From: Bacteroidota bacterium
GTDB taxonomy: Bacteria; Bacteroidota; JABWAT01
DNA length: 64,000 nt
Direction of reading: 5' to 3'
NCBI GenBank assembly: GCA_013360915.1
Contig: JABWAT010000007.1
Coordinates: 62,001-126,000 of the forward strand
In this document: in pieces, positions 59,620 through 63,567 of the stretch
Layout of the letters: each line of letters starts with the position of its first letter
Position numbering within the stretch: position 1 is the first letter of the stretch
Translations under genes and position numbers: made by a program
The notes under the pieces: model-generated
Seen by the model: the letters and a program-made list of their open reading frames with translations, nothing else
Told to the model about the DNA's origin: nothing
The model's database searches: none

Positions 59620-60597
59620 TTATTTGAAATCGAGTTCGGTCATATCGCCCACATTGACCCGGCGGAATCGGCCTGCGATGTGTGCACCATTACCAACGAT
59701 GGATTCCTCGAGCATCGAGGCATCTACCTTCGCTTCGGAACCGATAATGGAATTGCGAACAATGGAATTTTTAATGATGGCATTTTCCCCAATGGAGGCG
59801 TTGGGGCCCACCACCGAATTGGAAATTTTTGCGGATGGATGAATAAAGACCGGCGAATTGATCACCACCCCGGGCATCGAGACCTGCTGTGCTTTCATAG
59901 CCAGCAAAACCTGATTGGTGTGCAGCAGGGTTTCTGGCTTTCCGCAATCGTACCAGCCTTCCACGTTGAAGGTCGTGAATTTCTCGCCTTTTTCGATCAT
60001 CCGCTGAAGGGCATCGGTGAGCTGATATTCATTTTTCGTGCGGATGTTGTTGTCAATGAGGTAATTCAGACTTTCCTTCAGGTGGGAGGGATTGGTGATA
60101 TAGTACAATCCGACCATGGCCAGATGAGAAGTGGGATGTTCCGGTTTCTCGATCAGTTTTCTGATGAGCCCGTTTTCAACCTCGGCCACACCAAACCGGC
60201 GGGGATCCTCGACGTATTTCACGCCGAGCGATGACATTTTCTCACTGAATACCTTCTTAAGATCGACATCAAAAATGGTGTCTCCCAGAATGATAAAAAT
60301 CGGTTCTGTGTCGGAAAACGTACGCTGAGCCACCCAGATGGAATGACCAAGACCAAGAAGCTCGGGCTGTTCGACGAAATCGATGGGGATTTTGTAGTTC
60401 TTACGCAGATAATTTTCGATCACATCACCCATGTAACCGATGATCACCGTTGCTTCGGTAATGCCATCATCGATCAGTTTGTCGAAAATATGGCCGATGA
60501 TGGGTTTCCCGGCCACGCTGAGCATGACTTTGGGAAGGGTGTAGGTGTGTGGTCTCAGGCGGCTGCCCATGCCGGCAACCGGTATAATGGCTTTCAT
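59620..60597 (-). CDS. Sugar-phosphate nucleotidyltransferase with left-handed beta-helix
   Basis: A 325-residue enzyme. The N-terminal nucleotidyltransferase domain has the activator/phosphate loop IIPVAGMGSRLRPHT, KVMLSVAGKPII, and an Asp in ILGDTIFDVDL. EGWYDCGKPETLLHTN is the pattern of glucose-1-phosphate thymidylyl- or uridylyl-transferases. From about residue 245 hexapeptide-type repeats (IHPSAKISNSVVGPNASIGENAII) form a beta-helix. It makes an NDP-sugar, probably for the surface glycan made by the glycosyltransferase block. The sugar and nucleotide are not certain. It lies 44 bases after the aldehyde dehydrogenase gene. Confidence 0.88.
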   Translation of the reverse strand: MKAIIPVAGMGSRLRPHTYTLPKVMLSVAGKPIIGHIFDKLIDDGITEATVIIGYMGDVIENYLRKNYKIPIDFVEQPELLGLGHSIWVAQRTFSDTEPIFIILGDTIFDVDLKKVFSEKMSSLGVKYVEDPRRFGVAEVENGLIRKLIEKPEHPTSHLAMVGLYYITNPSHLKESLNYLIDNNIRTKNEYQLTDALQRMIEKGEKFTTFNVEGWYDCGKPETLLHTNQVLLAMKAQQVSMPGVVINSPVFIHPSAKISNSVVGPNASIGENAIIKNSIVRNSIIGSEAKVDASMLEESIVGNGAHIAGRFRRVNVGDMTELDFK

Positions 60598-60641: not shown

Positions 60642-62306
60642 TCAGGATTTCGAATATTTTTTGATCAGCTGATCGATGGCATCCGGGGTCAGAGAAGATC
60701 CCGTCTGAGTTGGCTCTTTTACAAGCCTGGTGGCAGGTTCGGCAGGGACTGGTCTGACTGCCGGAGCAGGGTCAGGTGTTGGTCTGACCGACGGATTGCC
60801 CGCCTTCTGGCGCAACCGTTCCTCGATGGTATCGATCCAGGAAGTGCCCGCAGGTTTCTCTGAATACGTTTTTGGAATATAGGGTTTTACCACCGGTTCC
60901 TTTTTGCCGGTTTTCGCTGGTTGTTCAGCCGGTGCTTTTCCAAGCCAGTCGGCATGAAAAGGACGGGTTTCAAAAGCCACCCGTTTGATGTTCAGTAAAT
61001 GAATCGGAGTGATGTTATCGGCGGTGATGCTTCCGCCCCAGGTTCCGCAACCCAGCGTCAGGGCAGGAGCAAGGTTGGTGGTATATCCCACGGCACCCAG
61101 GGAAGAAACGGAATTCACCACAATCCGCATGGCGGGTTTCTTCAGGGCAAATTCGGTGATGACTTTCTCATCGCTTGCATGAAGCGACATGGTGTGACCA
61201 ATTCCGCCAAACTGAAGAATCTCGATGCAACGTTTGCATCCTTCCTGCCATCCATTTACCGTGAACAGACTCAGGATGGGTGACAATGTTTCCATGGAAA
61301 GCGGATCCTGTTTCCCCACCGATTGAATTTCGGCTACCAGCACGCGGGTGTCGGCCGGAACGGTAATTCCGGCCAGTTGTGCAATCCGGGTGGCCGGCTG
61401 ACCCACGATATCGGCATTGAGTTTGCCACCGGGAACGGCAAGGCGCTCCAGTTTTTTGGTATCCTCTGCAGATAAAAAGGCGGCTTTGTAGCGGGTAAGG
61501 GATTCGAGCACTTTGGCTTTCACCGGTTCATCCACAATAATAGAACGTTCGGTGCTGCACAGCGTTCCGTTATCGAAACAGCAGGAGGACACAATATCGC
61601 GCACAGCTTTATCCACATCGGCGGTACGGTCCACATAAGCAGGCACGTTACCTGACCCAACCCCATAAGCCGGTTTTCCGGTGGATTGGGCAGCCCGGAC
61701 CATGGCACTCGAGCCGGTTGCCAGAATGACACTGGTGAGCTTGTGTTTCATGAGTTCGTCGGTTCCATCAATGGATACCTCGGTCATGCAATGGATCAGG
61801 CCTTTGGGGGCGCCGGCTTTCTCGGCGGCCTCCCGGACGACCCGGGCAGCCTCTGCGGTGCACTGAATGGCTCTTGGATGAGGCGACATCACAATACTGT
61901 TGCGCGATTTAACGGCAATAATGGCTTTATACATGGCTGTGGATGTCGGATTGGTGGTGGGAATCAGGGCTGCGATCACGCCCATGGGTTCGGCAATTTC
62001 CCACAGTGATCCATCGGGAGATTTGTGAATGACCCCGACGGTTTTCATGTCACGGATGTAGTCATAAATCACCCGTGAGCCGAACTTGTTTTTAAGGATT
62101 TTATCCTCGTACCGGCCCATGCCGGTATTGTCCACGGCTAAACGGGCGAGCCGTTCCGATTCACGCTCACCAGCTTCGGCCATGGCTTTGACAATCCGGT
62201 CGATCTGCTCCTGAGAAAATTCCTTTAATTCTGCCTGTGCCGTTGCAGCCGCCTGAAGAAAATCGCGAGCTTGCTGGATGGATCTGAGATCCGGACTGAG
62301 TTCCAT
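60642..62306 (-). CDS. CoA-acylating aldehyde dehydrogenase (EutE/PduP/AdhE-N type) with long C-terminal tail
   Basis: A 554-residue protein. Residues 1-440 are an acylating aldehyde dehydrogenase that makes acyl-CoA from an aldehyde with NAD and CoA, or the reverse. IPTTNPTSTAMYKAI and GSGNVPAYVDRTAD mark the nucleotide site, and the catalytic Cys lies in FDNGTLCSTERSI. The remaining ~110 residues are not needed for catalysis: a helix (SWIDTIEERLRQKAG), a Pro/Ala-rich linker and a final amphipathic helix (SLTPDAIDQLIKKYSK). That is the layout of bacterial microcompartment encapsulation peptides. No shell-protein gene is in the window. Confidence 0.88.
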   Translation of the reverse strand: MELSPDLRSIQQARDFLQAAATAQAELKEFSQEQIDRIVKAMAEAGERESERLARLAVDNTGMGRYEDKILKNKFGSRVIYDYIRDMKTVGVIHKSPDGSLWEIAEPMGVIAALIPTTNPTSTAMYKAIIAVKSRNSIVMSPHPRAIQCTAEAARVVREAAEKAGAPKGLIHCMTEVSIDGTDELMKHKLTSVILATGSSAMVRAAQSTGKPAYGVGSGNVPAYVDRTADVDKAVRDIVSSCCFDNGTLCSTERSIIVDEPVKAKVLESLTRYKAAFLSAEDTKKLERLAVPGGKLNADIVGQPATRIAQLAGITVPADTRVLVAEIQSVGKQDPLSMETLSPILSLFTVNGWQEGCKRCIEILQFGGIGHTMSLHASDEKVITEFALKKPAMRIVVNSVSSLGAVGYTTNLAPALTLGCGTWGGSITADNITPIHLLNIKRVAFETRPFHADWLGKAPAEQPAKTGKKEPVVKPYIPKTYSEKPAGTSWIDTIEERLRQKAGNPSVRPTPDPAPAVRPVPAEPATRLVKEPTQTGSSLTPDAIDQLIKKYSKS

Positions 62307-62320
62307 GAGAGGGTTCCCGG

Positions 62321-62743
62321 TTATTCGGCCCAGGTGCTGAGGCCGGTTTGTGATTCAAACACCCGTTTCAGACTGCCATTTTCAAACACATCTATAAACA
62401 CTTCCACCGAAAAGGCCTTGTTGCCCTTTACCAGACCGCCACCCATGACCTTGTGCTCCGGGTCGGCGATGGTGATTTTTCCGGTGACTTCGGTCAGTCC
62501 GCTTTTTTCTGAAATGTCGCCTGTCAGGTTAATCAGTTCCACTGGTTTATTCACCCGGAGCGTTGTCAGTTCCTTTTCGACCTGATGGAAGAAACCCATG
62601 GTGGCCGATTTGAGCATGCCCGACCCTTTGAACCGGGCGGCGGTAACCTGGTTTTCGTTGGCCCAGGCCAGTAGACTTTCCAGAATATCCTTGTCTGACC
62701 GGATGACCAGCCGGTAAACGCCGGCGATCTGCAATTGACTCAA
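62321..62743 (-). CDS. PPC/DUF296-domain protein
   Basis: About 140 residues if it starts at the TTG at 62743, which has GCAGG about 8 bases upstream. Another in-frame TTG at 62809 overlaps the transporter stop and adds a non-family leader. The PPC (DUF296) fold is seen in YRLVIRSDKDILESLLAWANEN, VTAARFKGSGML, KPVELINLTGDIS and HKVMGGGLVKGN. In bacteria these small trimeric proteins are of unknown function; in plants the domain accompanies AT-hook DNA-binding proteins. It lies 14 bases before the aldehyde dehydrogenase and 62 bases or less after the transporter. Confidence 0.82.
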   Translation of the reverse strand: MSQLQIAGVYRLVIRSDKDILESLLAWANENQVTAARFKGSGMLKSATMGFFHQVEKELTTLRVNKPVELINLTGDISEKSGLTEVTGKITIADPEHKVMGGGLVKGNKAFSVEVFIDVFENGSLKRVFESQTGLSTWAE

Positions 62744-62805
62744 GAGAGACCTGCTTTCTGTTTGGAAAAATGGTTGGTAAAGATAAGGCAGGTGGCGGCC
62801 CGCAA

Positions 62806-63567
62806 TCAATTCTGCATCAGAAGGCGGATGACGAGGGCCAGCGAGACAATGACCACGAGGGGCCGGATGAGCTTTCCGCCGGTGCGGATGGCGGTTCCGG
62901 TTCCCATTTTTGAACCCAGAAACATGAAAAGCCCCATGCAGAGTCCAAGCAGAACCAGCACTTTACCGGCCAGAAAAAATCCCGAGAGGGCGCCCAGGTT
63001 CGATCCCCAGTTGACAAACTTTCCGTTGGCTGCTGCGTGCAGGTAGTCCATTTTAAAAAAATGCAGCATGACGAAAATGAGAAAGGACCCGGTTCCAGGA
63101 CCCAGAAATCCGTCATAAAATCCGATGATCAGGGCGGAAAGCACCATGGCTGACCGGCTGAATACCAGCGTGCCGGTGTATTCTTCCTTATCCTTGTGAA
63201 ACAGAAAGTAGCCGCCAATCACCACCAGCACGAGGGCAATCAGGGTGGTCATATCGACCGGGTCGATGTGAAGCACCACGAAACAGCCCGTGAAGGAGGC
63301 CACAAAGGCAACGGGGAACATCCAGCCTTTTATCTGAGGGTAAACCAGACCATGGCGCGAATAAACGATGGAAGCCGTCATGCTGCCGAAACTGGACTGA
63401 AGCTTGTTGGTGCCAAGAGCGTAGGGTGCCGGCAAACCGGCCAGCAGGAGGGCGGGAAGCGTCAACAAGCCCGATCCGCCTGCCATGGCATCAACGTAGC
63501 CTGCCACAAACGAGACCACACAGAGGAGAATCAGTATCTCGTTGGCGGGCAGGAAAAGGATATCCAT
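62806..63567 (-). CDS. TSUP-family transporter (TauE/SafE-like)
   Basis: A 253-residue membrane protein with about eight helices. The repeat signatures are VSFVAGYVDAMAGGSGLLTLPALL near the N-terminus and IIGFYDGFLGPGTGSFLIFVML near residue 145-165. This is a different TSUP subgroup from the copy at 18.9 kb. It probably exports a sulfonate, sulfite or small organic anion; the substrate is unknown. It follows the beta-propeller gene by 7 bases and continues into the DUF296 gene. Confidence 0.9.
   Translation of the reverse strand: MDILFLPANEILILLCVVSFVAGYVDAMAGGSGLLTLPALLLAGLPAPYALGTNKLQSSFGSMTASIVYSRHGLVYPQIKGWMFPVAFVASFTGCFVVLHIDPVDMTTLIALVLVVIGGYFLFHKDKEEYTGTLVFSRSAMVLSALIIGFYDGFLGPGTGSFLIFVMLHFFKMDYLHAAANGKFVNWGSNLGALSGFFLAGKVLVLLGLCMGLFMFLGSKMGTGTAIRTGGKLIRPLVVIVSLALVIRLLMQN

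Follow-up and report, generated by a model that had tools for sequence, protein, structure and literature searches.

A tailed acylating aldehyde dehydrogenase as the probable lumen enzyme of a dispersed FRAG-type bacterial microcompartment in Bacteroidota

The FRAG bacterial microcompartments (BMCs) described by Sutter et al. in 2021 (PMC8217296) have shell genes at up to six places in the genome, a BMC-P triplet and aldehyde dehydrogenases (AldDhs) without a signature enzyme, and according to the passages dealing with them they occur in Ignavibacteriae and related phyla and their function is not known. The same passages catalogue type I AldDhs, whose peptide is C-terminal. The system considered here resembles FRAG1-7 as they are portrayed there: its shell genes are scattered, three BMC-P genes are present and an AldDh is encoded, for which a search for EutB gave no signature enzyme. 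The sequence-only reading had taken this AldDh gene as the strongest lead to an undescribed system within the window (the whole stretch of 64,000 nucleotides that was analysed); as FRAG BMCs and type I AldDhs already appear in that 2021 catalogue, the system is not undescribed. We estimate a probability of about 0.85 that the aldehyde dehydrogenase (ALDH) of the window is a lumen enzyme of a FRAG-type BMC, with no subtype assigned, whose genes lie at no fewer than five genomic places.

The aldehyde dehydrogenase and its C-terminal tail

The ALDH gene, which starts with ATG, and the parts of its product are located as follows.

60642..62306, minus strand: acylating aldehyde dehydrogenase (type I AldDh), 554 aa; TIGR02518, PDB 5j78, C250/E253
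60969..62306, minus strand: catalytic ALDH domain, residues 1-446; family alignments stop at residues 445-451
60798..60842, minus strand: helix 1 of the tail, SWIDTIEERLRQKAG, residues 489-503; conserved, ALDH-specific, non-amphipathic
60690..60797, minus strand: Pro/Ala-rich hypervariable linker, residues 504-539; unalignable among relatives
60645..60689, minus strand: terminal amphipathic helix, TPDAIDQLIKKYSK, putative encapsulation peptide; helix at residues 540-553 (60648-60689), feature taken as 540-554

The best curated model for the protein was TIGR02518, acetaldehyde dehydrogenase (acetylating), which matched residues 6-448 with 615.5 bits, 4.6 bits short of its equivalog cut-off of 620.1. 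We take this model to be equivalent to the IPR013357-type acylating ALDH that characterises type I BMC AldDhs. Lower scores were obtained with the models for AdhE (549 bits), SauS (336 bits) and the EutE/PduP type (NF011927, 259 bits; cut-off 403), and the best match among solved structures was PDB 5j78 (3.7e-153). Both Cys250 and Glu253 were invariant in an alignment with seven relatives, and Cys250 is the catalytic Cys. With TIGR02518 as the top model and a C-terminal amphipathic, putative encapsulation peptide on a flexible linker, the enzyme is, as far as its sequence tells, a type I BMC AldDh.

It belongs to the same acylating subfamily as the type I AldDhs of EUT2 loci, sharing a C-terminal helix and 44-49% identity with the ALDHs of two EUT-like loci (L045 and L046). 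Unlike them, it carries the additional conserved helix 1 and a long linker, and it is encoded outside a BMC locus in a genome without EutB and PduL. The type II enzymes EutE and PduP likewise perform acylating ALDH chemistry in a BMC, but their peptide is N-terminal and their model NF011927 scored far lower on the window ALDH. The catalytic domain is also homologous to those of AdhE and SauS; however, these models fit less well, and untailed acylating ALDHs of such kind (E 1e-143 to 1e-157) were found mostly in BMC-free genomes of the phylum.

Helix 1, the Pro/Ala linker and the terminal helix make up a tail of about 105 aa. Both helices exceed chance, being present in 22 of 24 compared sequences; these 22 came from 15 families, and the linkers between the helices could not be aligned; helix 1 was missing from one sequence inside the phylum (G014) and from a more distant one (L044). 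For a sixteenth family (G029) both helices were found by profile searches. The aligned tails of the 24 sequences gave the consensus SWMxEIEERIRxKAGN for helix 1 and the pattern [ILVM][STP]xxx[IV]xx[ILV][IVM]xx[FY]xK for the terminal helix. An AlphaFold2 model assigned residues 490-501 and 541-553 to helices, the tail being predicted at low confidence; resting on a shallow alignment (mean pLDDT 60.6), it is uninformative about the tail beyond these helix calls.

The hydrophobic moment of the terminal helix was 0.48 versus 0.23 for shuffled sequences (p=0.019), the mean profile peaked at 95 degrees, and the helix occupies the same position as the C-terminal helices in the ALDHs of the clustered EUT-like loci L045/L046. 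Being amphipathic and conserved, the terminal helix has the features of an encapsulation peptide and probably is one. Helix 1 was not significantly amphipathic in the window protein (p=0.29), and no sequence of the 21 analysed reached p<0.05. In a profile search of 12 genomes the ALDH was the sole strong match to helix 1 in every genome (3e-7 to 2e-11; runner-up 0.01). Since helix 1 is strongly conserved and specific to the ALDH, as well as non-amphipathic, it is probably not an encapsulation peptide, and we rejected it as a second one; we tentatively infer that a partner specific to the system probably docks there. A corresponding search with the terminal helix in 12 genomes revealed no second cargo, the ALDH alone rising above noise, in a search that divergent peptides would escape. 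Thus, the earlier description of an acylating ALDH followed by a helix, a Pro/Ala linker and a terminal helix holds, and close homologues do retain the tail. Its interpretation as a layout for targeting to microcompartments stands for the terminal helix and fails for helix 1.

Shell genes and the distribution of the tailed enzyme

The sequence-only reading had suggested a microcompartment core enzyme encoded apart from its shell genes, and it offered a genome search for PF00936 and PF03319 as its own test. This search, conducted on an assembly of 3.65 Mb in 51 contigs (99.35% complete), returned two BMC-H genes (C4:14259-14774), one tandem BMC-T gene (C11:36953-37462) and three BMC-P genes (two at C4:81155-81673 and one at C1:587902), which supports the proposal. 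The shell genes thus lie at four places, two of them on contig 4 and one each on contigs 11 and 1, and none was detected on contig 7, which harbours the ALDH gene. The spread over contigs 4, 11 and 1 is as in FRAG BMCs, and the three PF03319 genes match the BMC-P triplet by count. Read by eye, the neighbours of the shell genes are aroC and glycoside-hydrolase-like, rpoD-like sigma factor and phosphomannomutase-like genes.

Adjacent to the BMC-T gene is a PduS-like gene with Complex1_51K, SLBB, 4Fe-4S and RnfC_N domains. The PduT-like BMC-T retains the Cys of TICSGK, where the cluster ligand of PduT lies. A BMC-H of this genome contains AMVKAA and AATDAGAAAA, residues that in PduA make up the groove for peptide binding (PMC11157265). 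The second BMC-H (L008:9535-10023; L124-L143) continues into a variable linker and then a C-terminal domain that is conserved (LRxLAR...GREISRANK..L). Six of 13 members gave a Rho_N match for this domain, the best at 2.5e-4, so that the tail of this shell protein is nucleic-acid-binding-like. The BMC-P pair is closely preceded by a 63-aa ORF with a CxxC motif (L010:9448-9639) and no significant match in Pfam.

All four genomes of the class carried the ALDH, its tail and four BMC domains, the ALDH identity being 74-75% in the three relatives. Across 394 genomes of the phylum, with the tailed ALDH called at E below 1e-190 and shell genes by PF00936, the former was found in 71 and the latter in 79 genomes: 70 had both, one the ALDH only, nine BMC only and 314 neither (Fisher p=2e-66, uncorrected for shared ancestry). 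The single genome with the ALDH only is an 81% complete MAG, and both features occur in the other members of its genus. Inspection of the tables placed the tailed ALDH in 16 families, and BMC domains in all 16; one extra family showed a single, sub-threshold BMC hit. Three genomes of one genus (g70; G124, G271, G389) had one or two weaker BMC hits and lacked the tailed ALDH, a pattern possibly reflecting decay of the system. What emerges is one specific ALDH tied to scattered shell genes across 16 families.

This distribution bears on whether the enzyme could instead be a cytosolic, AdhE- or SauS-like acylating ALDH whose tail binds a non-shell target such as a partner enzyme or the PPC protein encoded next to it, the shells serving another pathway. 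The gene does share its operon with PPC, TSUP and housekeeping genes and is far from the shell genes, helix 1 is non-amphipathic, and the AdhE and SauS models also match. However, TIGR02518 fits best, the tailed ALDH and the shell genes share 16 families and almost the same genomes, and between families it is the co-occurrence that is conserved and not the neighbourhood. We therefore regard a cytosolic role as unlikely. Still less credible is that the ALDH and shell genes are leftovers of a metabolosome since lost and incapable of assembly. The genes are dispersed, PduL is missing and no signature enzyme was found, as such a relict would have it, but the catalytic site, tail helices and shell set are conserved over many families, which counts against decay.

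Absence of PduL and EutB and a possible mechanism

A phosphotransacylase was among the genes that the earlier reading wanted sought, and PduL, part of the canonical metabolosome core, proved absent from this genome. It occurred in only five of the 394 phylum genomes, four of which had BMC domains and three the tailed ALDH; in the four BMC-positive genomes extra BMC domains lay no more than a few kb from PduL, which points to a second, ordinary BMC locus there. EutB, the marker of EUT metabolosomes, was absent from this genome as well. It was detected in 12 of the 394 genomes and overlapped with the tailed ALDH in 1 of 71 (G061), a genome with nine BMC domains and hence probably a second BMC. 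No aldehyde-producing signature enzyme was found in a search that covered EutB. These absences imply that the compartment includes neither the canonical enzyme for CoA recycling nor the ethanolamine route, and ethanolamine was ruled out as the substrate by the lack of EutB. As these compartments are almost always without PduL, the textbook CoA-recycling step is missing. In a relative outside the phylum set (L044) the ALDH is followed directly by a PduL-like gene, so the absence of PduL may be specific to this lineage.

The same data weigh on the idea that an EUT2 ethanolamine metabolosome was split by genome rearrangement and still acts on ethanolamine. The nearest clustered relatives of the window enzyme (L045, L046) are ALDHs in EUT-like loci with a PduS/BMC-T pair, and the top NCBIfam models of the shell proteins are EutM, EutN-like and eut_PduT-like. 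Nevertheless, EutB is missing here and in 70 of the 71 genomes with the tailed ALDH, which already largely refutes this idea, the lone exception being accounted for by its probable second BMC, and PduL is missing too; among the alternatives this is the one to which we give the least credence.

The main-text passages on FRAG1-7 that we searched in PMC8217296 mention neither an absence of PduL nor helix 1 nor a PPC partner. Relative to the FRAG description in those passages, the near-constant lack of PduL and EutB in compartments with the tailed ALDH is new, and it removes two standard parts from the compartment model.

In a FRAG-type compartment of this kind, the terminal amphipathic helix on its flexible linker would bind the groove between BMC-H hexamers and thereby bring the ALDH into the shell. 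By the chemistry of the family, Cys250 would there carry out the oxidation of a short aldehyde, using NAD+ and CoA and yielding acyl-CoA and NADH, and the PduS-like flavo/iron-sulfur protein might take the electrons of NADH and export them through the shell via the PduT-like BMC-T. Without PduL, the usual enzyme would make no acyl-phosphate, and either acyl-CoA or CoA would cross the shell or another enzyme would recycle CoA. A widespread PduL-free metabolosome, in which acyl-CoA is exported or used inside, PduS and BMC-T, where present, re-oxidise NADH and a two-part tail holds the ALDH, with helix 1 docking a system-specific partner, is a tentative picture that we put forward as a minority possibility. 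Two BMC-H, BMC-T, three BMC-P, PduS, the ALDH and perhaps the PPC protein form a concrete set for assembly and substrate tests.

Gene neighbourhood of the aldehyde dehydrogenase

The neighbours named in the sequence-only reading, a PPC/DUF296 protein, a TSUP transporter and a sugar nucleotidyltransferase, were borne out by matches to PF03479, PF01925 and PF00483.

62321..62809, minus strand: PPC/DUF296 protein; PF03479 1.8e-19, 14 nt upstream of the ALDH
62806..63567, minus strand: TSUP (TauE/SafE) membrane transporter; PF01925 1.7e-40, same operon in 4/4 class genomes
59620..60597, minus strand: sugar nucleotidyltransferase, downstream neighbour; PF00483, synteny only within the class

The order TSUP-PPC-ALDH-nucleotidyltransferase-metK-ahcY was observed in all four class genomes, one of them with an insertion. 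In that genome (G001, L028:10741-12070) the gap between the ALDH and the nucleotidyltransferase holds, as read by eye, a small multidrug-resistance-like transporter and a class D beta-lactamase-like gene. Outside the class the ALDH is flanked by ruvB, a DNA-glycosylase-like gene, a response regulator and similar genes, and for this reason the neighbourhood was dropped as a pointer to the pathway. The TauE-like neighbour might suggest sulfoacetaldehyde metabolism; this idea was set aside, TSUP being syntenic only within the class and the SauS score far lower.

The PPC/DUF296 gene lies directly upstream of the ALDH in six genomes from three families (besides the window, L117:10921-11355 and L122:11135-11575), and its product is a probable operon partner of the enzyme. 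In two of the three families it is located between ruvB and the ALDH. In another genome (G078, L112:7048-8892), 14 nt separate the ALDH from the end of an upstream acetyl-CoA-synthetase-like gene (PF16177/PF00501), which may offer a clue to the acyl-CoA part of the pathway.
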